Positions 15,701-60,525 of a stretch of 64,000 nucleotides of DNA are shown in pieces. Below the pieces are notes generated by a model. It was given only the letters and a program-made list of their open reading frames with translations. It had not been told where the DNA came from and searched no databases. Position 1 is the first letter of the stretch; the number at the start of each line of letters is the position of its first letter. Position numbers and translations under genes: made by a program. Source of the stretch: Myxococcales bacterium (GTDB lineage: Bacteria; Myxococcota; UBA727; VGSZ01); contig JAHFED010000019.1 of the NCBI GenBank assembly GCA_023248635.1, positions 1 to 64,000 on the forward strand, in the 5' to 3' direction.

Positions 15701-18368
15701 AAGTGCCGCCGTTGTCGACGAACGAGAGCGCAGGGTTGGTGCGCAGCGCAGGGCTCGCAGCAAGGGTCTCGCTCGCGGTGGTGGAGAGAACGACGTCGTC
15801 GCCGGCCCGGGCCACCGCCGGAGAAACCGACCCGGCCGCCAGCGTGGGTGGCGTGAAGTCGAAGACGACGCTGCCAGAGGCGAAGCCGGCATTGCCCGCG
15901 AGATCGCGGGCCACGACGGAGACGCCCGCCTCGCCTTCGTCTTCGTCTCCTTGCACGAGGTAGACGCAGCGGAGCAAGAGGGCGTCGTCGACGTCGGCTT
16001 CGCAGTCGCTGAGCTCGCGTCCGCCCATCGAAACATCGATGTCGGCGGCCTCGGAGAGCTGCAGCGTGACGGTAACGACGTCGCGGCCGGCGACGGTGCT
16101 GGCAAAGGCTGGCTCGATGGAGGTCACCGTGATCGCAGGGGTGCTCACGTCGACCGCGAAGGCAGGGCCAGCGACGTCGAGGGCGCGGTTGCCGGCGAGG
16201 TCCATCAGGTCGACGCTGCTCAGGTAGCTGCCGGCGACGTCGCCGCCGGTCACAGCGTGCGCAAAGGTCGCTCCCGACGGCGAAAACGCCAGGGCGCTGG
16301 GTCCGGCGACGTGCAGCAGCGGGCTCCCGGCCAAGGCTTCGTTGCCGACGAGGCTGATGACGAGGTTGTCGCCGGCCCGGGCGAGCAGCGGCGACACCGT
16401 GGCCGACGCCAGCGCAGGAGCCGTGAAGTCGAAGACGACGACGGCGGCGGCGAAGCCCACATTGCCGGCCCCGTCGCGGGCCACCACCGAGATGCCCGCT
16501 TCGCCTTCGGCTTCGTCGCCGACGACCTGGTAGGTGCACAGCACGTCGGTGGGCGAGGCGTTTTCGACGCAGGAGTCGAAGGCGCGTCCACGAATGCGCG
16601 CATCGAAGTCGGGAAGGGCCAGGCGCACCGGTTCCGACAAGGTGACGGCGATGGTGACGACGTCGCGACCGGGCTGCATCGACGCATGGGTCTGACCCGC
16701 AACCACACCGAGCACGGGCGCGCCGACATCGAGGCTGAAGGAGGGGCCGGCGACGTCGACGGCGGCGTTGCCGGCGACGTCGACCAGGGTCAGCGTCGTG
16801 GTGTAGTTCCCGCCGATGTCTGCGTCGGTGACGTTGTGCAGGAAGCTACCGCCGGCGGCGCTGAAGTCGACGTCGCCAGGTCCATCGACCTGCAAGCTCG
16901 GGGGCGCGGCCAGGGTTTCAGCAGCGATGACGGCGACGACGAGGGCATCGCCTGGCTTGCCGCGCAGGGGCGTGGCTGTCGCCGACACCAACACCGGTGG
17001 GGTGAAGTCGAGGGTGACCGGAGCAGCGGTGGCGAAGCGGCTGTTGCCCGCGGAGTCGGTGGCCGTGACCGTGATGTCCGCCGTGCCTTCGGTGTCGCTG
17101 TCGACGACGTCGAAGCTGCACTGCCAGGCGATGGGCGCGCTGACCCCGGTGGGAGCGCAGTCGTTGAGGCTACGAGTGCCCACGCGCACTGCCACGACGG
17201 CGGCTTCGTCGAGGGCGAAAGAGAGCACCATGCTCGAGCGTCCAGCCTGCCTGGAAAGGTGGGTGGCGCTCGTCGTCGGCGCGTTGAGGAACTGAGGAGC
17301 CGTGGCATCGACGAAGACATGATCGAGCACCACGGGGGGCCCGACATTGCCGGCGACGTCGCGGTATCCGATCAGCCGTACTTCGTAGGCGCCGTCGGGG
17401 TCGCCCGCGCCGATCAGACGCGAAGCCGCATACACTAGGCCCACGCGCTCGATGCCCGGCATGGCGAGCTCGACGTCACCAGAAGCCAGCACGACCGTCG
17501 GAGGCTCACTGAACACTTCATCGGTGGTGAAGGACACGTTGGCCAAGCTGCCAGCACCGAAGTGCGCGGGCGCCGGCCGCACTTGGGGCGTGACGAGGGG
17601 CGCGTGGAAGTCGAGCACGAAGACGTCGTCGAAGCGACGCTCCGAGCTGTTGCCCGCGGCATCGACCACAGTGACGACGACAGCGGCGGCGCCCTCGGCA
17701 TCGACGGCGGCGTCGGCGATCAGGCTGAAGCGCGAGACCAGCGGGTCGTCGTCGTCGGGTCCATCGGCGGCAAAGAAGCGGCCGTCGGCGACGACGACGC
17801 TGCTGGCGCTGTCGACGAGCTCATCGGTGCGCAGGCGCAGCTTGACGACGCCGCGATCCTGGGCCAGCGCGGACGCCGTGACTTCGACGACGGAGGGCGC
17901 AGCGAAGTCGAAGCGGACCGCCCCGAGTCCCAGGCCTTTGGCGACGTTGCCAGAGGCGTCGACCAGAGTGCCGACGCGAATGGCGACGTCACCGGCCGGT
18001 TCGTCGCCGCGTGCACGATAGATCGCGGTGATGGTGTCGCCGTCGACGCTGACGGCGAAGGCGCGCTGGCTGAAGTCGAGCTCCACCACCGGGAGCTGAA
18101 ACAGGGTCTCGCTGGCCTTGAAGGCGACGGTCACATCCTGTCCAGCCCGCACCAAAGCCGGAGCGACGACGACGTCGGTGACCGCGGGAGGCACGTCTTC
18201 GATGTCGACGTCGGCGATGCAGACCCCGATCTGCTGGCGGCAGGTGAACTGCTCGGGACACTCGGACTTGTCGTTGCACTTCAGCACAAGGTCAGGAGGG
18301 AGGACGACGTCGGTGCACGCAGCAGCAGCCAGCAAAGCCGTCGTCGTCACCAGCCGTGCAATTTTCAT
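9708..18368 (-). CDS. Giant Ig-repeat / kelch-like surface lipoprotein
   Basis: About 2,886 residues. The signal peptide MKIARLVTTTALLAAAAC gives a lipobox, so the mature protein is lipidated. Residues about 50-1920 are tandem Ig-like modules arranged as pairs; the boundary motif FDFTPP, FDFTAP or FDFVAP followed by SVSPxLARPGDNV recurs about eight times, with VDLxDLAGN and the Cys-containing IGGRAFDSC as other landmarks. After a linker, residues about 2090-2750 carry kelch/galactose-oxidase-like blades (YDAAREKLVLFGG, WEWDGTTWTQ). The last 110 residues look beta-rich. The ATG at 18368 is preferred over upstream in-frame starts because of the GAGGG site and because the signal peptide begins there. 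Likely a cell-surface adhesin or matrix protein; ligand unknown. Confidence 0.88.
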   Translation of the reverse strand: MKIARLVTTTALLAAAACTDVVLPPDLVLKCNDKSECPEQFTCRQQIGVCIADVDIEDVPPAVTDVVVAPALVRAGQDVTVAFKASETLFQLPVVELDFSQRAFAVSVDGDTITAIYRARGDEPAGDVAIRVGTLVDASGNVAKGLGLGAVRFDFAAPSVVEVTASALAQDRGVVKLRLRTDELVDSASSVVVADGRFFAADGPDDDDPLVSRFSLIADAAVDAEGAAAVVVTVVDAAGNSSERRFDDVFVLDFHAPLVTPQVRPAPAHFGAGSLANVSFTTDEVFSEPPTVVLASGDVELAMPGIERVGLVYAASRLIGAGDPDGAYEVRLIGYRDVAGNVGPPVVLDHVFVDATAPQFLNAPTTSATHLSRQAGRSSMVLSFALDEAAVVAVRVGTRSLNDCAPTGVSAPIAWQCSFDVVDSDTEGTADITVTATDSAGNSRFATAAPVTLDFTPPVLVSATATPLRGKPGDALVVAVIAAETLAAPPSLQVDGPGDVDFSAAGGSFLHNVTDADIGGNYTTTLTLVDVAGNAAVDVAGPSFSLDVGAPVLGVVAGQTHASMQPGRDVVTIAVTLSEPVRLALPDFDARIRGRAFDSCVENASPTDVLCTYQVVGDEAEGEAGISVVARDGAGNVGFAAAVVVFDFTAPALASATVSPLLARAGDNLVISLVGNEALAGSPLLHVAGPSALAFSPSGATFAHAVTGGDVAGSYLSSVDLMDLAGNRALDVAGPAFAVDVSTPAITVTSIEPAFASTVAGRDVVTVTLQLSEAADIDVSMGGRELSDCEADVDDALLLRCVYLVQGDEDEGEAGVSVVARDLAGNAGFASGSVVFDFTPPTLAAGSVSPAVARAGDDVVLSTTASETLAASPALRTNPALSFVDNGGTFHHSVVGSDANGAFATELDLEDLAGNRSTVAGPSFALDTSTPFVTIVDAPAFASRVAGRNVVSVSFVSSEPVLAGDVTALIDGRAFDGCLADGSDGFTCSYAVQAVDDDGEKGISIVTRDAAGNSGFAAASVAFDFTPPALTSAAASPALARPGDKIVLSIVTSEATLAPILRVSGPSALTFNAGANSGTFAHSVLGSDAEGSYTSELDLEDLAGNVATSVVGPGFRLDTSTPIVSAISATPAFASSAPSNDVVTLVLHSSEVPPPGGLSATIGARAFDSCTPGVDAHDITCIYAVRGNEDNGERGISVVVRDAAGNTGFGATAVTFDFIAPTATSSVSPAVGHPSDNLTIAVVPSEPIIGSPTLRVSGPSTLTFVNSGNSFSHAVVGGDVEGAYNSRIDLTDLAGNVATNIVGASFSLDTSVPVVTSINAAPAFASTVVGKNTVTLALHLSEVPPAGGLTTTIGGRAFDSCTAGVDPKDFTCSYRVLGTEGNGEKGISVLTRDAGGNTAFAAASVVFDFVAPTATTTVTPGLARPGDNVVFSVVPSEAIVASPVLRVTGPTTLSTIASGNTFNHLVVNGDTGGNYVSRIDLTDLAGNVATNIAGPGLTLDVSTPTISINSVSPAFASTVSGKNVVTLSLRVSERINLAPARLDATIGGRNFTSCIEQSDPLNVVCSYNVVGNEGNGTAGIALTARDAAGNVGFAGSSVVFDFVAPTTTSTVVPGLARPGDNVVLTFTPSETLALAPTLNISGPAPTPFFVGTGNTFTHTVGGSDAQGNYTSNVDLTDLAGNRSVGVAGPSFAFDTTTPSVTAFTVNPALASTAAGRSAVTISLTLSEALSAATAGAIVVTVAGNSVLCTDTASPLVKTCTYNVLGTEIPAATEATVAVAVALKDAAGNKGFASNSLALDFTGPAVVANSALIKLVPTDTNPLSTVTAVTTGTRVQLTFTLSEASSTPVVTTTAGSPSSLSFTKTSSTGTTFVFDHTLATTGQGVHSISVTATDLAGNQTVTNLTPTFTVDTSAPAAPSVGVADALVYKREPWGSDASDVTKIFRIAVASGAVAGSTVIAWDGPTPRVSGIEIGRSSVGGGGATVSLSGGDRPEVFVTAVDDAGNESDDVAGGALQATPVRDVSWTAGFGGKVVGSVLENPHEFQANPWSTDDLTTVAAIAGAASNGIDRSGTGKLTTTASPTWVNAGGLDTPGARLTVAAGFDAGRGKFVLFGEAERTKNDTWEWDGDSWTEAVPLDPEGDGKPSSARVESGGIVYDAAREKLVLFGGADSNETWEYDGHSWNRRCEGSPASDVCTLPPGRRNHRLAYDSRRAKVVLFGGATSFGLTTALADVWEWDGTTWTQRCDASPASDTCATKPSARYGNALAYDERTNRIVLVGGSGATGTTPFDDVWTWDGTTWTDVTSTPRPPARQGAVSGFLASRQEVVLFGGGTGDARNSGGTFFGDTWSFDGTRWVQLTPTDPEGDGDPEGRRYSGYATTARGLEMFAGTTLPGIGSCDGVVGGCHGIWRFDGTSWADLIPDEANDGNPANRRESAMAYDSARRRAVMFGGRNGDGANSCVPEGGGNGNCAFTWEWINNHWTKVAGIITGPNPTPAARFGHAMAYDSVRNVVVLFGGSGGTNCDGSGTTDCGGTWTWNGAVWTKQAPTTNPTARSSHHMAFDAQRGVVVMFGGKVLNNASCDGGAGCDDTWLWNGVNWAIAPVTDVENDGNPTERASGGMAFDDVRDEIVLVAGTASGLPNAACDGGSTLCDKTWTWNGTRWKKFASVPSQQRFLSAAFDRRRERVVAMGGTNGGGNVVETIGEWDGASWVNRTDVDPEADAAPVGRTTPAIAYDDFNGVTISFGGVTPDQNTWLFDGSAARSVSHQATFSFRSSGAATSATILSLTSSIIAGARGAAGSASANGADLFVWDGGFWRPVSSNTAPVTTPAALPFSSTDSAFLQRVFSGPDRALRFAIRGGDPSGASSSVSSVSTDLAEVTIKYRLP

Positions 18369-18369
18369 T

Positions 18370-18388
18370 GATGCCCTCAAGGGCATTG
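18370..18388 (-). promoter_or_regulatory. Hairpin covering the ribosome site of the giant lipoprotein gene
   Basis: The bases just before the ATG at 18368 contain ATGCCC-TTGA-GGGCAT (minus strand), a 6-bp stem that buries the GAGGG ribosome-binding site. A longer-range regulatory role is inferred only from position. Confidence 0.35.
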
Positions 18389-18572
18389 TTTCCGAACACA
18401 TGTAGGGGTCAATGCGTAAAGGTGTGAGGAAGTCCCACACGAAACACGTTGACACTGGCAAAGGCTGGTGCACGGCTCAGCAACGGAGTTCATCGTGGGT
18501 GGCGCGATATGCACCACTTGAAGCCGTATCCAGCACATCCATCGGCCTTTTCATCGGCCGGTGATTGCATGT

Positions 18573-18857
18573 TTACATGATGGTGAATTCTTTGACGCTG
18601 TCGACAATCTCACACAGTTCGAGGCGTTCGACGAAGAGGTCGAGCGCCTGCAATTGGCCTTCGAGGTAGCGGCGATCGTTGCCGACCGACACGAAGCCCA
18701 ACACGGCCCCATTGGGGTTGTCGAGCTCCTCCACCTCGGCGGCACTGACGTTGAACGCCGAGCGCGTGCGCGCCAACACGCGCTTCACGATGCTGCGCTT
18801 GTCCTTGAGCGACTCCGCATAAAAGGTGATCGTCATCTCCAAAGATGCGACGATCAC
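18573..18857 (-). CDS. ylxP: DUF503 / YlxP family protein
   Basis: The 94-residue protein fits the YlxP (DUF503) family: a ferredoxin-like fold with SLKDKRSIVKRVLARTRSAF after the first strand, NVSAAEVEELDNPNGAVLGFVSVGNDRRYLEGQL, and a final IVDSVKEF strand. In many bacteria ylxP sits next to infB and rbfA in the nusA-infB operon; its exact function is unsettled. The GTG at 18857 directly follows the stop of the small lipoprotein gene, whose GAG-rich end can serve as a ribosome site. No rbfA follows here. Confidence 0.88.
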   Translation of the reverse strand: MIVASLEMTITFYAESLKDKRSIVKRVLARTRSAFNVSAAEVEELDNPNGAVLGFVSVGNDRRYLEGQLQALDLFVERLELCEIVDSVKEFTIM

Positions 18858-19178
18858 TTACTCGCCCTCGCCCTCGCCCTCGCCACCTTCAGGAGGGAGG
18901 CATTCCAGCGAAACGCGGCCGCTGAAAGTGACACAGACGTTGCCGACGTTGTCGTCGGGGCACAACTCCTCGAGGACGTCGCAGGCGCAGATTTCCTCGG
19001 GATCGCAACTGGCATCGGGCTCGGCGCAGGTCGAAGTCTCGCCATCGCCGAGATCGACGCACACGAGTCCATCCTCGCAGCGCAGGTCGCTGCAGTCGTC
19101 GCCGACGTCGGCCCGCTCTGGGGGCGGCTTCTCACAAGCTCCGAGGGCGAGGAGGACGACGAGAGGAAGCGCCCTCAC
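18858..19178 (-). CDS. Small cysteine-rich lipoprotein with GEGEGE tail, inside the infB operon
   Basis: A 106-residue protein with a lipoprotein signal (MRALPLVVLLALGAC) and ten or more Cys residues in the mature part (DDCSDLRCEDGLVCVD, SCDPEEICACDVLEELC), ending in EGGEGEGEGE. The Cys pattern recalls the small disulfide-rich headers common in Myxococcota surface lipoproteins. Its start overlaps the infB stop by four bases and its stop abuts ylxP, so an envelope protein is inserted in a translation operon. The gene may be one exposed piece of a larger complex, or a recent insertion; function unknown. Confidence 0.78.
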   Translation of the reverse strand: MRALPLVVLLALGACEKPPPERADVGDDCSDLRCEDGLVCVDLGDGETSTCAEPDASCDPEEICACDVLEELCPDDNVGNVCVTFSGRVSLECLPPEGGEGEGEGE

Positions 19179-21904
19179 GCCTGCGCGCCCGAACCCTGCG
19201 CCTGGGGTTGAGCAGACGACATCGCTGCCGACGTCGGATCGATGGCCTCACCCAGGTCCGCGGCCACTTCCACGAGCTCAAAGCACTCGATGACGTCGCC
19301 GGGTTGGAAGTCGATGAAGGACGCGAAGCCGATGCCGCACTCGAAGCCCGCGGCCACGTCTTTGGCGTCGTCTTTGAAACGTCGCAGCGAGGTGAAAGTG
19401 CCTTCGTGCAACACCTGTGTGCCCCGCTTGATGCGCGCACGTTCGGAGCGAACGATCTTGCCGTCGACGACGTAGGAGCCGGCGATGACACCCAGCTTGG
19501 GCACGGTGAAGGTCTGACGGACCTCGGCGCGACCCAGGTACTTCTCTTCGACGTTGGGCGCGAGCATCTGCCGCATGACCTTTTTCACGTCATCGAGCAG
19601 CTCATAGATGATGCTGAAGCTGCGGAGCTCGACCTTCTCGTGGCTCGCGAGGGCAGCCGATCTCTTGTCGGGCTTCGAGTTGAAGCCAACGATCATCGCC
19701 TTCGACGCCAAGGCGTGGTTCACGTCGGCTTCGGTGATGGTGCCGACACCCGAGAGGATGACGGTGACCTTCACCTTGCGCGTGCTCATCTTCTCGAGCG
19801 CCTGCGAGACCGCTTCGACGGAGCCGCCGACATCGGCCTTGACGATGATCTTGAGCTCCATCTGCTGCTCGGCGGTGGCCGATTTTTGGATGAAGTCCAA
19901 GAGGTTCGACATCGAGTTCTGGTTTTGACGACGAAGGGCCTCTTCGCGAGCCTTCTGCTGACGGTGCTCGGCCACGGTGCGGGCGGCTTTTTCGTCGGTG
20001 ACGGCATTGAGCTTGTCGCCAGCGTCGGGGACGCCGGACAGACCCAGCACCTGAACCGGCGTCGACGGCCCGGCTTCTTTCAAGGGCTGACCGCGGTCGT
20101 CGAGCATGGCCCGCACACGACCGGCGTGCTCGCCAGCGACGATGTAGTCGCCGATATGCAGCGTGCCTTGCTGCACCAAGATCGTCGCCACCGGGCCCCG
20201 ACCCTTGTCGAGCTCGGCTTCGACGATGGTGCCCTCGGCGCGCTTGTCGGCGGTGGCGCGCAGGTCGCCTACTTCGGCGACGAGCAAGATGGCCTCGAGC
20301 AGCTTGTCGACGTTCATGCCCGTGCGGGCCGACACCGGCAGCATGAGCGTGTCGCCACCCCACTCTTCGGCAACAAGGCCGTGCTCGGTGAGCTGTTGCA
20401 TGACGCGCTCGGGCTTGGCGTCGGCTTTGTCGGCCTTGTTGAGGGCCACGATGATCGGGACCTTGGCAGCCTTGGCGTGGGCCAGCGCTTCGGCCGTCTG
20501 CGGCATGACGCCGTCGTCGGCAGCGACGACGAGGATGACGATGTCGGTGACCTGAGCGCCGCGGGCGCGCATGGCCGTGAACGCCGCGTGACCGGGCGTG
20601 TCGAGGAAGGTGATCTTCCCCTTGGGCGTTTCCACCTGGTAGGCGCCGATGTGTTGGGTGATGCCCCCCGCTTCGCCGGCGGCGACCTCGGCCTTGCGAA
20701 TGCGGTCGAGCAGGCTGGTTTTGCCGTGATCGACGTGGCCCATGATGGTGACGACGGGAGGCCGCAGCTCGCCCTCTTTGGGCGCGGTGTCGGGCTTCTT
20801 CTCGACGGCGTCGAGGAGGTTTTCTTCGGTGAAGGCGACGTTCTTCACTTCGAACCCGAACTCGGTGGCGATGAGCGAAGCCGTGTCGAAGTCGATGGTC
20901 TGGTTGACCGTGACCATCATGCCCATCGAGAAGAGCTTCTGAATCACCTGGCCGGACTTGATGGCCATCTGGTGGGCGAGCTCGCCGACGCTGATCAGGC
21001 CGCTGACCTCGACGACGCGCTTGTGCTGCGCCGCCTGGGTGACCTCGGTTTGCTTGCCCTTTTTGCCCGTGCGCTTTTTCTCACCGGGATTGAACCAGAT
21101 GTCGCGGCCGCCTTGGCGCTGGCGGGAATCGCGACGTGCATCGGGACCACCAGGGGCTCCAGGAGAGCCAGGAGCGCCAGGCGTACCTGGACCTCGGGGC
21201 GCTCCGTTGGGGTTGGCGCCGGTGACGTCGACCATCTTGGGACCGCCGAAGCGATCGTTGATGACCCGAACTTCGCGGATGGGACCGCGGCCGCCAGGAC
21301 CTGTGCCCGCACGACGGGGACCCGAGGGCCCGAGCACGCGGCCCTCACCGGCCAAGCGGGCCCGGATGGTGTCGGCGTCGATGACGCGGGTGATGTTCTG
21401 GGCACCAGGGGCCGCAGCTGCAGCCTCTGCCGCCGCCGGTGCCGGCGTTGACACTTCGGGGCTGGCAGTCTCGACGCGCGGCGCCGCGGCCGGAGCTGCT
21501 TCCGACGCAGGCGCGGCGTCGACGGCCTCGACCACCGGACGCGCATCGACGACGGCGGCGCGAACCTCGACCGGCGCTTCGATGACGGGGGCGACGCGGA
21601 TGGGCTCCGCGGCCCGAGCCACCGGCGGCGGCGGCGTCGGGTCGCGGCGCACCGGCGCGGGTTTCTCCTCGATCACCACGGGCGCGGGCTCGGGCACGGG
21701 ACTGCTGCGGCGAACGACGCTGGTGCGCACGACGCTGGTGGGCTTGGGAGGCTGACCAGCGTTCAACGCTTTCATCGCCTCTGCTTCGTCGACCGTCGAC
21801 GAATGCGACTTGATGTCGAGGCCCAGCTTGTTGAGCTTCTCGAGGAGCTCTCTGTTCTCCAGCCCGAGCTTCTTTGCCAGCTCGTGGACGCGCAACTTAC
21901 CCAT
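19175..21904 (-). CDS. infB: Translation initiation factor IF-2
   Basis: The 909-residue protein carries fMet-tRNA to the 30S subunit and drives subunit joining by GTP hydrolysis. An IF2-N helical motif occupies about residues 1-55 (LRVHELAKKLGL), then a Pro/Ala/Gly-rich linker to about 300, a second IF2-N-like motif, and the G domain from about 385 with GHVDHGKTS (G1), GGITQHIGAY (G2), DTPGH (G3) and NKAD (G4), followed by domains II to IV. Start at 21904 (MGKLRVHEL) is where the family begins; upstream in-frame codons lack conservation. nusA is not upstream; the gene has its own 263-base leader. A small lipoprotein gene and ylxP follow in overlap. Confidence 0.97.
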   Translation of the reverse strand: MGKLRVHELAKKLGLENRELLEKLNKLGLDIKSHSSTVDEAEAMKALNAGQPPKPTSVVRTSVVRRSSPVPEPAPVVIEEKPAPVRRDPTPPPPVARAAEPIRVAPVIEAPVEVRAAVVDARPVVEAVDAAPASEAAPAAAPRVETASPEVSTPAPAAAEAAAAAPGAQNITRVIDADTIRARLAGEGRVLGPSGPRRAGTGPGGRGPIREVRVINDRFGGPKMVDVTGANPNGAPRGPGTPGAPGSPGAPGGPDARRDSRQRQGGRDIWFNPGEKKRTGKKGKQTEVTQAAQHKRVVEVSGLISVGELAHQMAIKSGQVIQKLFSMGMMVTVNQTIDFDTASLIATEFGFEVKNVAFTEENLLDAVEKKPDTAPKEGELRPPVVTIMGHVDHGKTSLLDRIRKAEVAAGEAGGITQHIGAYQVETPKGKITFLDTPGHAAFTAMRARGAQVTDIVILVVAADDGVMPQTAEALAHAKAAKVPIIVALNKADKADAKPERVMQQLTEHGLVAEEWGGDTLMLPVSARTGMNVDKLLEAILLVAEVGDLRATADKRAEGTIVEAELDKGRGPVATILVQQGTLHIGDYIVAGEHAGRVRAMLDDRGQPLKEAGPSTPVQVLGLSGVPDAGDKLNAVTDEKAARTVAEHRQQKAREEALRRQNQNSMSNLLDFIQKSATAEQQMELKIIVKADVGGSVEAVSQALEKMSTRKVKVTVILSGVGTITEADVNHALASKAMIVGFNSKPDKRSAALASHEKVELRSFSIIYELLDDVKKVMRQMLAPNVEEKYLGRAEVRQTFTVPKLGVIAGSYVVDGKIVRSERARIKRGTQVLHEGTFTSLRRFKDDAKDVAAGFECGIGFASFIDFQPGDVIECFELVEVAADLGEAIDPTSAAMSSAQPQAQGSGAQA

Positions 21905-34583: not shown

Positions 34584-37500
34584 CTACCGCGGCGCCTTGC
34601 CGCCGAGATCTTCGATGAAGTCCCGCACATCCTGGTTGTCGGGATCGGTGGGATTGACGATGAGGTGCTGCCGGAAGGCGGCGAGGGCGTCCTTGTTCTT
34701 CTTGTCCGACTTCAGGGCCTCGCCGAGGTGCTTCCATGCGGACGGATGCGTCGGCGCCAGACGGACGCAGCGCTGGGACATTTCGATGCCGCGCTTGAGG
34801 TTCTTTGGCACGTCGCCGAACTGCTGCACCAGCATCTCCCCCATCGCGCAGACGGAGTCGGCGTTGTTCGGGTCTGCCTTCAGGGCTTCCTCAAAGGCGC
34901 GCAGGGCCGCGGGACCATCACCGGTAGCGGCCAGGATGTCGGCGATTTGAATCCAGGCGTCGGTGCGCTTCTTGTCGATGCGGACGACTTCGCCGAAGCA
35001 CTTCTTTGCCTCCTCGAGGCGGCCCATGTCGCGTTTGGTCTTGCCCAGCGCGAACCAGGCGTCGTCGTAGTCGGGTGCCAGGGTCGTGGCCTTCACCAGC
35101 GCATCCACGGCCTCGGGGTTTTGCGCCATCAGCTGGTTGGTGATGCCGAGCAGGTAGGGAAGCACGGGGTCCTCAGGGGCGGCGTCCACGGCGCCCTGCA
35201 AAAGGGTCGAGGCTTGTTTGGGATCGCTGCTGCTCATCACGATGGCTTTGGCGGCGATGACGTCGGGGTTGTTGGGCCGCTGTCGATCTGCGGTCTCGAT
35301 GAGGCTCTTGGCGCGCAGCACGTCCTTCAACTTCGCGCAGGTGACGGCGGCGCGCGTGTAGCCGTCGAAGGCGTTGGGCGCCAAGGCCATCGCCTCTGAA
35401 TAGCGGTCGAGCGCTTGCTTGAGCTCGCCCCGGGCAGCGGCGACGTCGCCGGCGGCGAGGATGACGGCGGGGTTCTTGGCGTCCATCAGCAAGGCTTCGT
35501 TGACCTGGAGCTCTGCGTCGTGTGGCCGCTTCATGTCGACGAGGGCTTCGGCGTAGCGAGCGCGGGTGTCGCTGTCGCGCGGATTTTCGGCCAAAGCCTT
35601 GACGTATTCGGCTTCGGCTTCGGCGAACTGCCGCCGGCGTGTGAAGACGTAGGCCTTGGCCGAGCGCACGCGGTAGCGCTCGCCCGAATTCACCCCGTCC
35701 AAGGCGGCGTCGGCGATCTTTAATGCCTCGGCGAGCTTGCCGCGCTCGATGGCGTCGAGGACGTTTTCGACAACGGCGTCGGAGCGCTTGGGATCGAGCT
35801 TCTGGGCCTTCTCGAACTGGGCGCGCGCCTCGGGGGCCTTGCCCATCTCTTTGGCCGCCACGCCGAACCAGAAGTTCAGTGCCGCGCTGTCAGGGGCCTT
35901 CTTGAGCGCCAATTGAAGATCGGTGTAGGCGCTGAGAGTCTCGGTGATGCCGAGCTTTGCGCGCGCCAGGCCAATGATGCCGTCGACGTCGTCGGGAGAG
36001 AGGGCCAGCAGGGCCTTGGCGTGCTCGCGGGCCACGGCGTAGTCGCGCAAGCGGATGGCGAATTCGATGGCCCGCACCCGCAAAGAGCGGTTCTCGGGAA
36101 CGAGGGCGACAGCAGCCGCAAGCAAGCGCATGGCGTCGGCGTTGGCGCGGGCCGAGATCGCGATCTCCACCCGCCCCATGAAGGCCTCTGCTTGTTGAGG
36201 AGGGGATGCCTGCTTGGCGCGGGCGCCTTCACTCATCTCGGTGAGCAGCGCCTTGCCTTCTTCAACGGTGGCCGAGGTCTGAGCGAGCAGCGTGCCCTTG
36301 AGAATGGCGGCCCGCGGATGCTCTGGGTTTTCGGCGAAGACCTTGGCGAGATAAGCCATGGCCGGCTCCGGCGACCCCGACGAAGCCAGCAGGCGGGCCT
36401 GCAGGAAGAGCGGCAAGGCGTTGTGCACCATGGAAGAGGCGGCGGCGTTCGACGCCAGCGCCAGGTCGAACTGCTTCATGGCGCCGTCGACGTCTCCTTT
36501 GCCTTGCAGCCCCAGCCCCCACCAGGTCAGCAACTCGGCGGTGCGCTCGGGCGGCAGCGAGGTCGCGGCCTTGATGACGGGTTCGAGGCCGCTGATGCCG
36601 ACATCCCAGCTCTGGTGGGCATAGGCGATGGCTGCGGCGGCGACGGCGACGGAGGTCTCGTCTCCGCCCGCAGCGAGGGCGGCGGCGGCCTGCAGGTCCG
36701 CCAAGAAGCTCGGCATGTCCTCGACGATGGTCAGGTAGGCGAGGAAGCGGGCCTGCTCGGCGGCGGCCCTCTTGCCGGCGTCCGGGAAGGGCGTGATGGC
36801 CTTGCTGGAGTCGACGATGGCGCCGTAGTGGGCCGCGCCCTGGCGGTAGGCGAGGTAGGTGTCCTGGCGCAGCAGCTGGGCAGGGTCCACACCCCCCGGT
36901 GGCGGTGGCGGTGGCGGTGGCGGGGGCGGGGGTCGCAGCTCGATCACCTCGGGCGTACCGCCGACGTCTCCGGAGCCGACGATGCAGCGGTAGCCAAACC
37001 AACCACACTCACTGGCGAAGTTGGGGATCGCACCCAGCAAGCCGACGACGACGACGGCGGAGACCCCGGCGATGCCGATGAGCAGGGGGCGTTTGCTCGT
37101 CCCCTCGCGTGCTGCCTTGCGACGACGTTCGACCTCTTCTTTGGCCTTCTCGGCCTGCAAAAGGTCGCCGGTGCTCACCTGCATCTCGTCGTGCGGGTCG
37201 GCCGCGGGGGGCTCGGTGCGTTGGCGCTTGGGGACCGGCAGGTCGCTGGCCTTGGGCACCGGGAGGTCGGTGCCGGCGAAGGGCGTGGGGAGGTCGTCGA
37301 GGCCGCCGAGAGCGGAGGCCATCGCTTTTTGGATCGTCGCCGCAAACGCGGGAATTTGGGCCAGGGGCTTCCAGCTGACGCCGTCGGAGCTGCCTTCTTC
37401 GCTCCCGAGCATCTCGCCGCGGGCAAACATTTGCAGGATGGTCTGCGAGTCAAAGGGCCCCAGCACACGGCCCGAGCGCTTGCGGACGCGGTATTGCTCC

Positions 37501-38315
37501 TGCTTGACGGCTGGCCCCGCGGCGCCGGCGTCGTCGATGAAATCGAGCAGTCCCGACCCGGGAGAGTTGGTGTTGACCACCACCGAGTTGTTGCCGTGGA
37601 AAGCCGAGGGGTTTGCAGGCACCGGCGACGATCCGAGGTCGCCGAAGATGTCACTCATCGCCGTCGACTTGCCGACGGCGGGCTTGGCAGGCGGAGCATC
37701 GACGCCAAAGATGTCGTCCATCGAGGGCAGCGTCGGCTTCGTCGTCGGCGTCGGGCCGCTGCCAAACGAGGGCGCAGCGCCGCCGGGCAGCGGAACCGCG
37801 CCAGCAGCGCGCGGCAGGGGGACAGCCCCACCCACCGGCGCAGCGCGAGGCAAGGGAACAGCACCAGACGACATCCCCGGCAAAGGCACTGAGCCGCCCG
37901 GCAGGGGCACCGCACCCCCTGGCAAGGGAACGGAGCCGCCGGGCAAAGGCACAGCGCCTCGTGCGCCCGGCAGGGCCACCGGGCCTCCACCCCCTGGCAA
38001 GGGAACGGCGGCGCCGCCCGGCAGGGGCACAGCGCCGCTGGGAAGGGGGACAGCACCAGCGAAGCCGGGGAGGGGCACCGAGGCCCCAGCGCTCGCGCGC
38101 GGCAAGGGCACGGCGGCACCAGGCAGCGGCACAGCGCCGGGATTGGCAGCGGGCAGGGGAACGGCAGCGCTGGGCAGGGGGACGGCGGCGTTGGCGTTGG
38201 CGTGGACGACGAATTGGTGTTGGCAGCGCGGACACTTGATCGACACGCCCTGAGGAGGGATGCGCGATTCGTCGACGTTGTACTGGGCAGAGCAACTCGG
38301 GCAGGCGATCTGCAC
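34584..38315 (-). CDS. Zinc-ribbon / VPLP-repeat / GYF / TPR transmembrane protein (GltJ-like N-terminal half)
   Basis: The 1,243-residue protein has an MJ0042-type zinc ribbon (C5, C8, C28, C31), a low-complexity array of 15 VPLP units at about 44-177, two DIFG short motifs (about 202 and 223), a GYF-like domain at about 275-325 (RKRSGRVLGPFDSQTILQMFARGEM), one transmembrane helix at about 410-430, a Pro run near 465, and then TPR repeats to the end. In Myxococcus GltJ a cytoplasmic zinc ribbon and GYF domain precede one transmembrane helix and recruit the GTPase MglA. Here the periplasmic part is TPR rather than TonB-like. A role in assembling an envelope machine is inference. Confidence 0.85.
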   Translation of the reverse strand: MQIACPSCSAQYNVDESRIPPQGVSIKCPRCQHQFVVHANANAAVPLPSAAVPLPAANPGAVPLPGAAVPLPRASAGASVPLPGFAGAVPLPSGAVPLPGGAAVPLPGGGGPVALPGARGAVPLPGGSVPLPGGAVPLPGGSVPLPGMSSGAVPLPRAAPVGGAVPLPRAAGAVPLPGGAAPSFGSGPTPTTKPTLPSMDDIFGVDAPPAKPAVGKSTAMSDIFGDLGSSPVPANPSAFHGNNSVVVNTNSPGSGLLDFIDDAGAAGPAVKQEQYRVRKRSGRVLGPFDSQTILQMFARGEMLGSEEGSSDGVSWKPLAQIPAFAATIQKAMASALGGLDDLPTPFAGTDLPVPKASDLPVPKRQRTEPPAADPHDEMQVSTGDLLQAEKAKEEVERRRKAAREGTSKRPLLIGIAGVSAVVVVGLLGAIPNFASECGWFGYRCIVGSGDVGGTPEVIELRPPPPPPPPPPPPGGVDPAQLLRQDTYLAYRQGAAHYGAIVDSSKAITPFPDAGKRAAAEQARFLAYLTIVEDMPSFLADLQAAAALAAGGDETSVAVAAAAIAYAHQSWDVGISGLEPVIKAATSLPPERTAELLTWWGLGLQGKGDVDGAMKQFDLALASNAAASSMVHNALPLFLQARLLASSGSPEPAMAYLAKVFAENPEHPRAAILKGTLLAQTSATVEEGKALLTEMSEGARAKQASPPQQAEAFMGRVEIAISARANADAMRLLAAAVALVPENRSLRVRAIEFAIRLRDYAVAREHAKALLALSPDDVDGIIGLARAKLGITETLSAYTDLQLALKKAPDSAALNFWFGVAAKEMGKAPEARAQFEKAQKLDPKRSDAVVENVLDAIERGKLAEALKIADAALDGVNSGERYRVRSAKAYVFTRRRQFAEAEAEYVKALAENPRDSDTRARYAEALVDMKRPHDAELQVNEALLMDAKNPAVILAAGDVAAARGELKQALDRYSEAMALAPNAFDGYTRAAVTCAKLKDVLRAKSLIETADRQRPNNPDVIAAKAIVMSSSDPKQASTLLQGAVDAAPEDPVLPYLLGITNQLMAQNPEAVDALVKATTLAPDYDDAWFALGKTKRDMGRLEEAKKCFGEVVRIDKKRTDAWIQIADILAATGDGPAALRAFEEALKADPNNADSVCAMGEMLVQQFGDVPKNLKRGIEMSQRCVRLAPTHPSAWKHLGEALKSDKKNKDALAAFRQHLIVNPTDPDNQDVRDFIEDLGGKAPR
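37785..38186 (-). repeat. VPLPG-coding tandem minisatellite
   Basis: Imperfect repeats of about 18-27 bases encode 15 VPLP units and one VALP unit between the zinc ribbon and the GYF domain. All spacing keeps the frame; copy number is likely to vary between strains. Confidence 0.85.
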
Positions 38316-40625: not shown

Positions 40626-41828
40626 ATGTCGGCGGTTTTCCAAGAATGGCTCAACATCGTCATCCGCTGGGCCCACGTGCTCGCGGCCATCATGTGGGTC
40701 GGTGACTCCTTCTTGTTCATGTGGCTCGACAGCCACTTGACCAACCCCAGCCGCAAGCGCGAAGGCGACGTCGTCGGCGAGCTTTGGATGACCCACTCCG
40801 GCGGCTTTTACGAGATGGTCAAGCGCAAGACCCTCGCCAAAGACGAGCTGCCGCCGACCATTCATTGGTTCAAATGGGAGTCCTACTCGACGTGGATCAG
40901 CGGATTCCTGCTGCTGATCGTCGTCTACTACGCCGGCGGCCGGGCCATGCTGGTCGAGGCGACCTCGACGCTGTCGCACGCCGAAGCCGTCGGCATCAGC
41001 TTGTCGTGCCTGGTCGGGGCAGTGGCGTTTTACGATTTGTTGTGTCGCACGCCGATCATCAAGCGTAACCGCATTTTCGGCGTCGTCGGCTTGGCTTTGA
41101 TTGTCACTGTTGCTTGGGGATTGTTGCAGATTTTTTCACCCCGCGCAGTGTTTCTGCAGGTGGGGGCCATGCTCGGCACCATCATGGCCAGCAATGTCTT
41201 CTTCCGCATCATTCCATCGCAGCGCCACATGCTGTCGGCGACGTCGGCGGGCGAGCCCGTCGATCCCTCCTACGGCTATCGCGCCAAGCAGCGCTCGGTG
41301 CACAACCACTATCTGACCTTGCCCGTGCTCTTCACCATGTTGTCGAACCACTTCTCGACATTGTATTCCCATGCACAAGCCTGGGCAGTTCTCGGTCTTG
41401 TTTTTATCGCTGGTGTTGGCGTCAAATATTTCATGAATTTTCGACGCCGTACCCATCCGATCATCCTGGTGGGCACGGTGCTCGCTTGCTCCGCGGTGGC
41501 GGCGCTGACCCTGCCGTCGTCGTCGACGACGACGACCTCTGCGGCTGGTGATCGAGTGGCCTGGGGCGCGGTGAAATTGATCCTCGAGACGCGCTGCACG
41601 GGCTGTCATGCGAAGAAGCCGACGAACCCGGGTTTTGCGGCGCCGCCGGTGGGCCTGACCTTCGAAGATCCACGCGACGTCTACGCCGTCAAAGACCGCA
41701 TCTTGGTGCGCGCGGTGCAAACCAAGACCATGCCTTTGGGCAACCTGACGGGCATGACCGAAGACGAGCGCGTGCTCCTCGGCCGCTGGATCGCCCAAGG
41801 TGCGCTCATCCCTGGCGCCTCGCCATGA
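40626..41828 (+). CDS. puuD: Urate hydroxylase PuuD with fused cytochrome c domain
   Basis: Oxidises uric acid to 5-hydroxyisourate in the membrane, passing electrons to a cytochrome. The 400-residue protein has about eight transmembrane helices in the first 300 residues (WAHVLAAIMWVGDSFLFMWLD, the RNRIFG loop, ASNVFFRIIPSQRHML, HNHYLTLPVLFTMLSNHF). The C-terminal domain carries a c-type haem motif, CTGCH at 324-328, with a likely axial Met at 369 (KTMPLGN). The ribosome site GAGAAGG precedes the ATG. First gene of the urate operon; its stop overlaps the allantoinase start. The 120-base upstream region shows no recognised urate-repressor palindrome. Confidence 0.93.
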   Translation: MSAVFQEWLNIVIRWAHVLAAIMWVGDSFLFMWLDSHLTNPSRKREGDVVGELWMTHSGGFYEMVKRKTLAKDELPPTIHWFKWESYSTWISGFLLLIVVYYAGGRAMLVEATSTLSHAEAVGISLSCLVGAVAFYDLLCRTPIIKRNRIFGVVGLALIVTVAWGLLQIFSPRAVFLQVGAMLGTIMASNVFFRIIPSQRHMLSATSAGEPVDPSYGYRAKQRSVHNHYLTLPVLFTMLSNHFSTLYSHAQAWAVLGLVFIAGVGVKYFMNFRRRTHPIILVGTVLACSAVAALTLPSSSTTTTSAAGDRVAWGAVKLILETRCTGCHAKKPTNPGFAAPPVGLTFEDPRDVYAVKDRILVRAVQTKTMPLGNLTGMTEDERVLLGRWIAQGALIPGASP

Positions 41829-43213
41829 GCGTGACATCGACGTCCTTTTGCCTGCGGGGGCAGCGCGTGCTGCTCGCGACCCAGCACGGCAGCGGCCTGC
41901 ATCCGGCCACCCTGCACATCAAAGACGGGGTCATCGCCGACATCAGCGCCTTCGACGTCGTCGACCACAACTTGGCCCTCGTCGACGCTGGCGAGCTCTT
42001 GGTCACCCCCGGCGTCGTCGACAGCCACGTGCACATCAACGAGCCCGGGCGCACCCACTGGGAAGGCTTTGAGACTGCGACCCAGGCCGCAGCCGCCGGC
42101 GGCATCACCACCGTCGTCGACATGCCCCTGAATTGCATCCCGGCGACGACGTCGAAGGCCGCGGCTGAGGCCAAGCTCGCGGCTCTGCAGGGGCAGCTGC
42201 ACGTCGACGTCGCCTTCTGGGGTGGGGTGGTTCCCGGCAACGTCAAGGAGCTCAAGGGCCTGGCCGACTTCGGCGTGCCCGGGGCCAAGTGCTTTCTCTG
42301 CCCCTCGGGCGTCGACGAGTTTCCCCACGTCGAGCGCGCGCATCTCGACGACGCCATGCCGGTGCTGCGCGACCTGGGGCTCACTTTGCTGGTGCATGCC
42401 GAGCACCCCAAGCCCATCGATGACGCCGAGCGGGCCTTGGTCCGCGAGCAAGCCGATCCCCGCGCTTACGCCACCTACCTGCGCTCTCGTCCCCGCGCGG
42501 CCGAAGACGAAGCCGTCGGCCTTGTGATTGAATTGGCCCGCAAGCACCGCTGTCCAGCGCACATTGTTCACCTATCGTCGGCGTCGGCCATCCCACTGCT
42601 GAAAGCCGCCCAGGAAGAGGGCGTACCCATCACGGCCGAGACCTGCTTGCACTACCTGGCCTTCTCGAGTGACGACGTTGCCTCCGGCGAAACCCGCTTC
42701 AAGTGCGCGCCGCCCATTCGCGATAGAAGCAATCGTGAAGATCTGTGGGATGGCCTATTCGACGGCACCATTAATATGGTAGTATCGGATCATTCACCCT
42801 GTGCGCCGGCGCTGAAGAAATCCGAGAGCGGCGACTTCCTCGGCGCCTGGGGTGGCATCGCGGGGCTGCAGCTCGGACTCAGTGTCTTGCACACGCTCTC
42901 TTCGTCGCGGGGTCAGGGCTTGGCGCAGATGTTTGCCTGGAACGCCACCGCCCCCGCTCGGCTCGCAGGCCTCTCGTCGCGCAAAGGACAACTCAAACGA
43001 GGCTTCGACGCCGACATCGTCGTTTGGGACGAGCGCGAGAGCTTTGCCGTCGACGTCGACCTGCTGCGCCACCGCCACAAGGTCTCGCCCTACGCCGGAC
43101 GAACCCTGCAGGGCGTCGTCGAGCAGACCTTCGTGCGCGGTCGCCTCGCCTACTCCAGGGCTGCCGGCCTCAGCGCGCCGCGCGGATCTTTTCAGCGTGC
43201 GTCAGCGATCTAA
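41825..43213 (+). CDS. allB: Allantoinase
   Basis: Opens the hydantoin ring of allantoin to allantoate. The 462-residue amidohydrolase has the metal motif VDSHVHINEPGRTHWEGF, the GAKCFLCPSG segment bearing the carboxylated Lys, LLVHAEHP and IVHLSSASA for further His ligands, and VVSDHSPC for the final Asp. Composition and length fit the bacterial enzyme. Start overlaps the puuD stop (ATGA). Acts downstream of the hydroxyisourate hydrolase and OHCU decarboxylase encoded two and one genes later. Confidence 0.95.
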   Translation: MSVTSTSFCLRGQRVLLATQHGSGLHPATLHIKDGVIADISAFDVVDHNLALVDAGELLVTPGVVDSHVHINEPGRTHWEGFETATQAAAAGGITTVVDMPLNCIPATTSKAAAEAKLAALQGQLHVDVAFWGGVVPGNVKELKGLADFGVPGAKCFLCPSGVDEFPHVERAHLDDAMPVLRDLGLTLLVHAEHPKPIDDAERALVREQADPRAYATYLRSRPRAAEDEAVGLVIELARKHRCPAHIVHLSSASAIPLLKAAQEEGVPITAETCLHYLAFSSDDVASGETRFKCAPPIRDRSNREDLWDGLFDGTINMVVSDHSPCAPALKKSESGDFLGAWGGIAGLQLGLSVLHTLSSSRGQGLAQMFAWNATAPARLAGLSSRKGQLKRGFDADIVVWDERESFAVDVDLLRHRHKVSPYAGRTLQGVVEQTFVRGRLAYSRAAGLSAPRGSFQRASAI

Positions 43214-43275
43214 AGACTGAAGATTTAAGCTGACTGTATCATGATCTCAGAGCGAGTGGATTGGAGCCTTCCGCT

Positions 43276-44799
43276 GTGTCTTCCCGCCAGAAATCACCCC
43301 CCGATCTCGCCCATCTGGTCAACCTCGCCGAGGACCTGACGGGCACCTTCGTAGTCTACGCCACCGATGACTATTTCGCCGACAAGGAGAACCTGATCCG
43401 TCCCGACGCTCCGCAGTGGATCGAGGATAAATACACCGATAAAGGTAAGTGGATGGACGGATGGGAGTCCCAACGTCGTCGCACTCCGGGCCATGATTAC
43501 TGTATTGTCCGTTTGGGCACTCCAGGCTTTATTCATGCCCTCGTCGTCGACACCACCTGGTTCCGCGGCAATGCACCCACGCACATCGCCGTCGAGGGTA
43601 TCGACCTCAGCCACACCGCCACCGCCGACGAGCTCAACGCGGCGACGTCGTGGACGACCATCCTCGAACGCACCGCGGTGCTGCCCCACACCGAAAACCA
43701 GCTCTCGCTGGCGGCGCCGTCGACGACGAAGGCCTCTCATGTGCGCCTGCACATCTTTCCCGACGGCGGCGTCGCCCGCTTGCGGGTCTTTGGGGTCGTG
43801 GCCGCCGACGAACGCACCTTTTGGCGCAGCGGCGTCACCGACCTCGCTGCCATCGAAAACGGGGGCACCATCGCAGCAGTCTCCGACGCCTTCTTTGGAC
43901 CGCCCTCGAACCTCTTGTTGCCCGGCCGCGGCGTGAACATGGGCGACGGTTGGGAGACCAAGCGCCGCCGCACCGCGGGCTCCGATTGGTGCGTGATCAA
44001 GCTTGCCCGCCGAGGTGTGGTCGAACGCATCGAACTCGACACCGCCTTTTTCAAGGGCAACGCACCCCAGGCCGTCGTCGTCGAAGCCCTGGACGAGCAA
44101 GCGCCATCACCAGAGCGCCTGCGCACCCTGGGAGGCTGGCCCGTCGCTGTGTCCAAGACCCCGTTGGTGCAGCACCGCCGTCACGTGATCGAGCCCGAGC
44201 GGCCGACGACGGCGACGCACCTGCGCGTGCACATTTTTCCCCACGGCGGCGTCAACCGGCTGCGCGTGTTCGGCAACGCCACCGACACCGACCAAGAGGC
44301 CCGGGCCCTGCGCACCCTGCACCAGGCCGACGACGCGCTCTGGCTGTCTTTTTGTGCGAGCAAGACCTGGATGAAAGCCCTGAAAGCAGCGCCGGCGTCG
44401 TCGGTGCGTGCTCTCTTTCAGCAGGCCGACGCGGCGTTTTGGCAACTGACCGAGGCCGACCTCCTCGAGGCCTTCGCCGCCCATCCAAAGATCGGCGAAC
44501 ACAAAGCTGCAGCGACGGCGACGGCGCAATCGGCAGCTTGGTCGACGGCGGAGCAGGGGTCGGCGACGTTGACGACGACGACGACGGAGCGCCTGGCCAC
44601 GGCCAACCAGACATACGTCGACAAGTTTGGATTCATCTACATCGTCTTTGCCGCCGGAAAGAGCGCAGACTTGATGCTTGAAATACTCGAGCAACGCGTT
44701 GACAACGATCGCGCGACGGAGCTCGAGACGGCGGCACGCGAACAATTGAAGATCACCCGTCGACGCCTGGAGAATTGGCTGCGGGCGCAGGTGGCCTGA
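43276..44799 (+). CDS. Allantoicase - OHCU decarboxylase fusion
   Basis: Two enzymes in one 507-residue chain. Residues about 15-330 are an allantoicase: two related jelly-roll halves, each with GxGWExxRRR (MDGWESQRRRTPGHD and MGDGWETKRRRTAGSDW), FRGNAP or FKGNAP, and HIFPxGGVxRLRVFG. Allantoicase yields ureidoglycolate and urea from allantoate. Residues about 340-505 are OHCU decarboxylase (UraD): EAFAAHPKIGEH and the ending NQTYVDKFGFIYIVFAAGKS, which makes S-allantoin from OHCU. A linker near 335 joins them. Start is taken as GTG 43276 with GGAG upstream; TTG 43261 would add five residues. The fused enzymes are not consecutive steps; allantoinase acts between them. Confidence 0.92.
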   Translation: MSSRQKSPPDLAHLVNLAEDLTGTFVVYATDDYFADKENLIRPDAPQWIEDKYTDKGKWMDGWESQRRRTPGHDYCIVRLGTPGFIHALVVDTTWFRGNAPTHIAVEGIDLSHTATADELNAATSWTTILERTAVLPHTENQLSLAAPSTTKASHVRLHIFPDGGVARLRVFGVVAADERTFWRSGVTDLAAIENGGTIAAVSDAFFGPPSNLLLPGRGVNMGDGWETKRRRTAGSDWCVIKLARRGVVERIELDTAFFKGNAPQAVVVEALDEQAPSPERLRTLGGWPVAVSKTPLVQHRRHVIEPERPTTATHLRVHIFPHGGVNRLRVFGNATDTDQEARALRTLHQADDALWLSFCASKTWMKALKAAPASSVRALFQQADAAFWQLTEADLLEAFAAHPKIGEHKAAATATAQSAAWSTAEQGSATLTTTTTERLATANQTYVDKFGFIYIVFAAGKSADLMLEILEQRVDNDRATELETAAREQLKITRRRLENWLRAQVA

Positions 44800-44843
44800 G
44801 GTCTTGAGGTTCAGGACGCAGGTGCGTCATGAAGGAGTCACAC

Positions 44844-45179
44844 ATGGGCATCAGCACGCACATTCTCGACACCTCTTTGGGCAAGCCTGCCGAAGCCGTC
44901 GCCATCGTCCTCGAGCGCATGGTCGCCGATGAGGGTCCCTTCGAGCGGGTCGCCGCCGGCACTACTGACGCCGATGGTCGTCTGAAATTGGTGGTCGGCG
45001 AGCCACGGGTGGGCACCTACCGCCTGCGTTTTGCCATTGGCGAGTACTTCTGGCGCCGCGGACACGAGGCCTTCTTCCCGGTCGCCGAGGTGGCTTTCGT
45101 GGTGAAGAATGCTGCGGAACACTATCATGTGCCACTGCTTCTTAATCCATTCGGATATACGACATATCGGGGATCATGA
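44844..45179 (+). CDS. uraH: 5-Hydroxyisourate hydrolase
   Basis: Hydrolyses the unstable product of urate oxidation to OHCU. The 111-residue transthyretin-like protein starts GISTHILDTSLGKPA with the catalytic His, has TTDADGRL and GTYRLRFAIGEYF, HYHVPLLLNPFGYTTYRGS, and ends in the diagnostic YRGS. The ATG at 44844 has AAGGAG six bases upstream; an ATG at 44829 would overlap that site. Its stop overlaps the allA start. Confidence 0.95.
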   Translation: MGISTHILDTSLGKPAEAVAIVLERMVADEGPFERVAAGTTDADGRLKLVVGEPRVGTYRLRFAIGEYFWRRGHEAFFPVAEVAFVVKNAAEHYHVPLLLNPFGYTTYRGS

Positions 45180-45682
45180 AAATGCGCGAGATCAGGGCGC
45201 TCCCGCTCAGCGCCGCCGCCTTCGCTCCCTTCGGCGCCGTGGTCTCTGCCGGCCTGACCGCGGGGCTCGCCGCCAATCAGGGGACGGCGGTGCGCTTCGA
45301 CTTCTGCGCCCCGTTGACATCGACACGCCCTGCCGCCCGCGGAAATCTCGCGGTGTTTCGCTCGACACAGAAGTCCCTCCCTTTCGAGGTGCGCCTGCTG
45401 GAGCGGCACCCCTGCTCGACCCAGACGTTCTTGCCCATGGTCTGCACCCGTTTCCTTGTGTGCGTGGCGCCTGCGCGCCCAGACGGCGCCCCCGACGACG
45501 ACGGCCTCCTCGCTTTCGTCTGCGGTCCGGGCCAGGGCATCTCCTACGACGTCGGCGTGTGGCACCACCCCATCATCGCCCTCGACGCCGACGCCGACTT
45601 CGCCATGATCGCCTTCGAGGACGGCTCTGCTCTCGACTGCGTCGAGCAACCCTTGGCCAGCGTCGTCGTCGTCACCGCCTAG
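45176..45682 (+). CDS. allA: Ureidoglycolate lyase
   Basis: Cleaves ureidoglycolate to glyoxylate and urea, the last step encoded here. The 168-residue cupin-like protein has FAPFGAVVS near the N-terminus, LLERHPCSTQTFLPM, FVCGPGQGISYDVGVWHHPIIAL and DFAMIAFEDG, all family landmarks. Its start overlaps the uraH stop (ATGA), closing a five-gene operon. No urease or ureide transporter is visible in the window. Confidence 0.94.
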   Translation: MKMREIRALPLSAAAFAPFGAVVSAGLTAGLAANQGTAVRFDFCAPLTSTRPAARGNLAVFRSTQKSLPFEVRLLERHPCSTQTFLPMVCTRFLVCVAPARPDGAPDDDGLLAFVCGPGQGISYDVGVWHHPIIALDADADFAMIAFEDGSALDCVEQPLASVVVVTA

Positions 45683-59801: not shown

Positions 59802-59875
59802 TTCGGCGCGCCTGGCGTCCTCGTTCGCCGAACGTTCGGCGGGCGATGTCGTCGTCGGGACGGAGCCGCATCCCC

Positions 59876-60520: not shown

Positions 60521-60525
60521 CGCCG

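Follow-up and report, generated by a model that had tools for sequence, protein, structure and literature searches.

A phylum-wide Myxococcota protein family joining a zinc ribbon, a VPLPG-type motif array, a GYF-fold domain and a predicted periplasmic TPR superhelix

What would a bacterial protein do with fifteen copies of a short proline-rich motif set between a zinc ribbon and a GYF-fold domain, and with a long tetratricopeptide repeat (TPR) superhelix beyond its membrane helix? The question is raised by a gene at 34584..38315 on the minus strand of a 64,000-nucleotide stretch of a Myxococcales bacterium assembly (GCA_023248635.1, contig JAHFED010000019.1, positions 1 to 64,000), hereafter the window. 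The gene encodes 1243 amino acids from a GTG start codon, a position shared by two relatives that begin at the identical residue (L038 with ATG and L040 with GTG; L, G, C and f numbers are our handles for loci, genomes, contigs and families). The original prediction, made from the sequence alone, had likened the cytoplasmic half to GltJ of Myxococcus xanthus, which recruits the motility GTPase MglA, and had suggested that the motif array could be the ligand of the protein's own GYF domain. Our preferred reading, in which we have moderate confidence, is that the protein is a single-pass scaffold of the inner membrane, its multivalent arm in the cytoplasm and its TPR platform in the periplasm, belonging to a family that spans the Myxococcota.

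Architecture of the window protein

The features below all lie on the minus strand. The MJ0042-type zinc ribbon (CPSC...CPRC; residues 1-37, 38205..38315) contains two CxxC pairs and, over residues 1-35, scored 57.9 bits against PF13717 (cut-off 30.3) and 43.4 bits against TIGR02098 (cut-off 20.9). By sequence it matched the solved structures 7zok and 2nb9, the nearest being the M. xanthus GltJ zinc ribbon (7zok, E 9.5e-6), and by fold Foldseek matched it to the ZitP zinc finger (2nb9), LysW and the GltJ zinc ribbon.

For the domain at residues 272-337 (37305..37502), the GYF_2 family (PF14237) stayed below its cut-off of 25.8 bits, with 17.6 bits for the domain taken singly and 12.6 bits when the N-terminal half was searched; it was matched weakly in all five of five relatives, across which no other family was consistent. 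An AlphaFold2 model of the N-terminal half, built from a five-sequence alignment, contains a beta-beta-alpha-beta-alpha domain at residues 274-337 (predicted local distance difference test score, pLDDT, 83-88), whose top Foldseek matches were the GYF domains of Smy2, GIGYF2, GIGYF1 and GltJ with probabilities of 0.97-1.00. The E-values of these matches were modest (0.006 to 0.03, best 0.006), perhaps because the model also contains long disordered parts. When a profile of 62 distinct homologues was compared with a small GYF_2 set including GltJ's, the match had 95% probability and an E-value of 5.5e-8, which refers to that single comparison. We regard a GYF fold, divergent in sequence and recognised by structure, as established by prediction; judged by the profile match, the GYF domains of GltJ and of the array-bearing protein are homologous.

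A membrane helix is predicted at residues 409-428 (37032..37091), and the basic helix in front of it (residues 382-406) would, by the positive-inside rule, leave the N-terminus in the cytoplasm. A run of 12 prolines follows just beyond the membrane (residues 462-473, 36897..36932), and then the TPR region, predicted to be periplasmic (residues 478-1236, 34608..36884). A Pfam search found ten PF14559 stretches there, along with other families, and the region was modelled as a continuous superhelix of about 44 helices, or about 20 TPRs, with a mean pLDDT of about 90. Its Foldseek matches, large eukaryotic TPR superhelices (OGT, Ctr9, Ski3), were uninformative for function. Domain searches, AlphaFold2 and Foldseek thus agree with the original prediction that the cytoplasmic half follows the GltJ order of zinc ribbon, linker, GYF domain and membrane helix, and the PF14559 matches and the modelled superhelix bear out its placing of TPRs beyond the membrane.

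The array (residues 45-177, 37785..38183), mostly in the form AVPLPG, is predicted to be disordered (pLDDT <50). We counted exactly 15 VPLP copies, as had been claimed, plus one VALP, whereas residue shuffles of this linker yielded a mean of 0.09 [VI]PLP copies and a maximum of 1. At the DNA level the VPLP pattern is matched 20 times in the window, where 4.6 +/- 2.35 matches would be expected; the array accounts for 15 of the 20. Among the 15 copies there are 13 distinct 12-mers, with a third-position identity of 0.47 against 0.41 for independently drawn codons; because the copies vary in their codons, the repeat appears to be kept at the protein level and not to be a fresh DNA duplication.

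A family across the Myxococcota and its repeated motif

A scan of named genomes with the window protein as the single query gave no match; with an alignment instead, the scan recovered five loci, one of which (L042) encodes a zinc ribbon and TPRs without a GYF domain or array. Orthologues of the same architecture occur within the same order in G001, G002 (split across two contigs) and G015, as well as in G004, where the array is reduced to just two IPLPG copies. At the level of the phylum, a profile of the GYF region matched 146 of 193 Myxococcota genomes, including 120 of the 149 high-quality ones, usually with one copy per genome and mostly in frames of 1000-2400 amino acids. We read 40 further loci around the profile matches; almost all homologues with a complete N-terminus have a zinc ribbon, a proline-rich linker and a GYF-like domain, followed by TPRs where we read on. 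The evidence suggests that family f13 is the Myxococcaceae and f18 the Anaeromyxobacteraceae.

In a tree of 39 members, each taxonomic family with at least two rows is separated from the rest by a single branch, a pattern consistent with vertical descent. The array is found on both sides of the midpoint root and is therefore probably ancestral, with losses in f8, f9, f11 and f12. By profile searches this is a protein family of its own, apart from GltJ, and no NCBIfam equivalog reaches its cut-off for the window protein. Among the papers searched, none dealt with the family and none joined the VPLPG motif with myxobacteria, and a further search that used locus tags expected near mglA in M. xanthus, guessed from distance, returned no paper either.

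The original prediction had described the VPLP array as an unusual proline-rich repeat; the array is real, and what had been overlooked is the phylum-wide family and the conservation of the motif within it. We found 309 [VI]PLP copies over the 62 distinct homologues (range 0 to 19), with at least one copy in 51 and at least four in 34. Composition shuffles led us to expect about 0.05 copies per linker, and the count exceeded expectation at p<0.01 in 40 of the 50 complete linkers. The 62 homologues include same-genus near-copies, so that these counts describe breadth and not independent events, the breadth resting on the many families with arrays. Across homologues the consensus is A-[VI]-P-L-P-G, while flanks, spacing and codons vary and the spacers are unrelated. 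In 1.09 Mb of scanned DNA, every frame with at least three motifs that the filter itself had not assigned to the family came from a locus retrieved for the family. Variable copy number and unrelated spacers are what would be expected of a multivalent short motif.

Two variants of the linker were seen in relatives. In the Myxococcaceae orthologues at L080:6972-14279 and L079:6531-11531, the IPLPG array is succeeded by repeats of another motif, DPFALPPP. In family f4 of the same order, a relative (L026:7980-12299 and L027:1-2940) has a Leu-Pro-rich linker and TPRs with no recognisable GYF domain; its zinc ribbon was seen in L026.

A scaffold, a closed tail or a motility effector?

In the scaffold that we favour, the cytoplasmic tail would serve as a flexible arm for recruitment. 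The zinc ribbon at the tip of the tail and the GYF-fold domain close to the membrane would each have a protein partner to bind, and between them the disordered [VI]PLPG array would present many weak copies of one docking site, gathering a cytosolic partner by avidity. Through the membrane helix this tail would be coupled to some 20 TPRs in the periplasm, a rigid superhelix that would hold or assemble an envelope complex. Such a protein might operate much as GltJ and ZitP do, both of which also combine a linker and one membrane helix with an MJ0042-type zinc ribbon at the N-terminus. The nearly constant architecture, the rule of one copy per genome, the conserved motif and the ZitP-like fold of the zinc ribbon support this reading. 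Several points weigh against it: no binding partner is known or was found, the neighbouring genes indicate no single pathway, the topology is deduced from a single predicted helix together with the positive-inside rule, and the core function cannot everywhere require the array, which several branches (f8, f9, f11 and f12) lack. What the analysis itself demonstrates is the domains, the conserved motif, the range of the family and the predicted folds; within the scaffold model we infer the topology, the multivalent binding, the identity and location of the partners, and any link to MglA. More tentatively, A-[VI]-P-L-P-G may be a new bacterial short linear motif, whose multivalent arrays gather a specific cytosolic protein onto a transmembrane scaffold ancestral to much of the Myxococcota, with the adjacent GYF fold turned to another ligand through a conserved basic strand (R-R-R/K-S-G-K).

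Eukaryotic GYF domains bind proline-rich peptides, and the peptide-binding signature is the aromatic pocket W-x-Y-x(6-11)-GPF-x4-M-x2-W-x3-GYF. This background, of which 3fma is an example as a complex of this kind, together with the presence of array and GYF domain in one protein in most homologues, speaks for the idea that the GYF domain binds its own VPLP array and keeps the tail closed until a partner competes. The Myxococcota domain shares the fold and the GPF turn with the eukaryotic domains (Smy2, GIGYF1/2) and differs from them in having most peptide-pocket aromatics replaced. In virtually every one of the 62 distinct homologues, four of the six aromatic positions of this signature hold other residues. 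The first W has become F or Y in 57 and stays W in 2, V, I or L takes the place of the Y of W-x-Y, and M (60 homologues) or L (2) that of the second W; in the GYF tripeptide Y has become Q, E or K in 58 and the final F has become L in 58. The GPF turn survives (59 of 62 have F or Y), as does the aromatic residue preceding it (F in 47); conserved instead are the basic strand and an acidic G-N-E-D/E stretch. Moreover, seven homologues without any [VI]PLP carry the identical residues at the signature positions, and Leu-Pro repeats persist in L026, which has no recognisable GYF domain ([IVE]xLP[SND] 7 times against 0.3 expected, with a pattern picked after seeing the sequence). That AlphaFold2 leaves the array disordered is weak evidence either way. 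We consider intramolecular closure quite improbable and the original suggestion of a self-ligand unsupported by these observations, although a non-canonical interaction between GYF domain and array may occur. Even less probable is a flexible proline-rich spacer that is kept open by its composition and has no ligand of its own. The predicted disorder and the other proline-rich linkers of some lineages would suit a spacer, but linkers with up to 19 copies, where shuffles give about 0.05, and a five-residue core that stays constant amid varying neighbours, spacing and codons, would not.

The remaining alternative to the scaffold is that the protein is an effector of MglA, or of another polarity-module component, linking front-rear polarity to an envelope machine as a TPR counterpart of GltJ. 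Both the nearest solved sequence of its zinc ribbon and a homologue of its GYF domain are found in GltJ, and in M. xanthus both GltJ (PMC12288465) and the TPR protein SgmX, which binds MglA-GTP (PMC7668184), are MglA effectors. The search of the source genome for MglA and Glt proteins that the original prediction had proposed found MglA, MglB and GltG-, GltE- and GltJ-like proteins, so that neither of the grounds named for dropping that prediction, a missing GYF fold or a genome lacking MglA and Glt-like proteins, applies. Its MglA is 82% identical to an M. xanthus MglA query sequence, and the MglB and the three Glt-like proteins are all below NCBIfam curated cut-offs. The presence of MglA is a weak test, because an MglA-type GTPase occurs in 23 of 23 genomes checked, with and without the family. 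Six Myxococcaceae genomes have mglBA within about 20 kb, downstream of the gene past serS, tadA and others, but the segment between is largely housekeeping, mglBA was not within the stretches read at f18, f8 and f26 loci (up to 20 kb a side), and in the source genome it is on a different contig; I read this proximity as shared chromosomal order, not an operon. GltG and the family overlap broadly across genomes, with exceptions in both directions among near-complete genomes: G020, G033, G045, G049, G063 and G094 (96-100% complete) have a strong GltG match without the family, and G053, G095, G116 and G191 have the family without a GltG match at 1e-30. Intermediate-score GltG matches may be paralogues sharing the tail domain, which makes this comparison a rough one. 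Finally, the AgmX/GltJ zinc ribbon shows no polar localisation in Caulobacter, unlike that of ZitP (PMC5182065), so MJ0042 ribbons do not have one common ligand. On balance we consider the polarity alternative unlikely, if less so than closure of the tail, and a role in motility possible but unproven.

GltJ (AgmX, NF033761), of the M. xanthus gliding machinery, has an MJ0042 zinc ribbon, long linker, GYF domain and membrane helix in the same order, whereas it ends in the AgmX/PglI C-terminal domain and sits beside glt genes, and the window protein has about 20 TPRs and the VPLPG array. We rejected identity with GltJ: NF033761 gave 24.3 bits against a cut-off of 450, the C-terminal half is TPR and not AgmX/PglI, and the genome has a separate GltJ-like gene, near gltG and gltE on contig C120, whose product (L043:9588-12005) matches the AgmX/PglI C-terminal domain. 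None of the 40-odd loci read has a glt gene recurring beside the family. This separate GltJ-like protein, the lack of an adjoining glt gene and the GltG distribution together leave a reading of the protein as a GltJ-type motility component unsupported. SgmX is likewise a Myxococcota protein with a long TPR array, and consists of TPRs only (PMC7668184); the predicted place of the window protein's TPRs is beyond the inner membrane, where they could not meet MglA. ZitP of Caulobacter crescentus, whose zinc ribbon binds PopZ and whose C-terminal part serves pilus biogenesis, also has a cytoplasmic zinc ribbon (2nb9 fold), a linker, one membrane helix and a C-terminal domain beyond it (PMC5182065). 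ZitP differs in its short linker and DUF3426, without GYF domain, array or TPRs.

The source genome has a gliding G1-like cluster of its own (L043:9588-12005 and 13453-19500), encoding the GltJ-like, GltG-like and GltE-like proteins and a further TPR protein; its scores below the cut-offs for GltG, GltE and GltJ indicate that the order has diverged forms. The window also carries, at 59846-61607 on the plus strand, a gene of the TolQ/ExbB type and, after it, two of the ExbD/TolR type, arranged as in the AglRQS gliding motor, and another TolQ/ExbD-like set lies near mglBA on contig C94 (L045:17658-19001).

Further motifs, gene neighbourhood and significance

Three further short motifs mark the tail. 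Two xDIFG motifs (residues 198-228, 37632..37724) recur as two to three DIFG copies in the nearest relatives, with one changed to DLFG in L025; an LLDFIDDAG motif ahead of the GYF domain (residues 256-264, 37524..37550) is recognisable in most homologues; and three DLPxP motifs past the GYF domain (residues 341-362, 37230..37295) correspond to four copies in L021 and one in L022.

No neighbouring gene shared across the phylum was found in the loci read. At 16 loci (f13, f8, f26 and f29) a seryl-tRNA synthetase gene follows on the same strand with a gap of at most 138 bases, and in f18 a TolC-like gene lies downstream. Upstream, a gene for a cyclic-nucleotide-binding protein overlaps or abuts the start in f8 and f26, and divergent genes for a flavin oxidoreductase, a glycosyltransferase 2, a polysaccharide deacetylase, an acyltransferase and an epimerase occur in the Myxococcaceae and some others. 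The downstream neighbour in the window encodes a haemolysin-III-type membrane protein and is not common to other loci. Elsewhere in the window are a plus-strand urate/purine breakdown cluster (40626-45679) with a membrane urate oxidase (PuuD type), an amidohydrolase, a 5-hydroxyisourate (HIU) hydrolase, a 512-amino-acid fusion of allantoicase and 2-oxo-4-hydroxy-4-carboxy-5-ureidoimidazoline (OHCU) decarboxylase and a further small gene, and, on the minus strand (9711-18473), a gene for an exported-looking protein of 2921 amino acids with immunoglobulin-like and Kelch repeats.

The separate parts of the protein are known, as is the order of zinc ribbon, GYF domain and membrane helix from GltJ; as far as our tools show, what is new is the combination with TPRs, the spread of the family through the phylum as a single copy and, most of all, the conservation of the VPLPG/IPLPG array. 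About three in four of the Myxococcota genomes sampled contain the family, which is apparently undescribed, and proteins so widespread in a phylum of polarity, predation and multicellularity usually serve something basic. Eukaryotic scaffolds commonly carry short binding motifs in repeated form, but such repeats are rarely recognised in bacteria. Here the VPLPG/IPLPG motif can be traced through a whole phylum, and its losses in nature, with a copy number that ranges from 0 to 19, provide ready-made variants; because orthologues occur in apparently cultivable Myxococcaceae, the scaffold prediction is directly testable.

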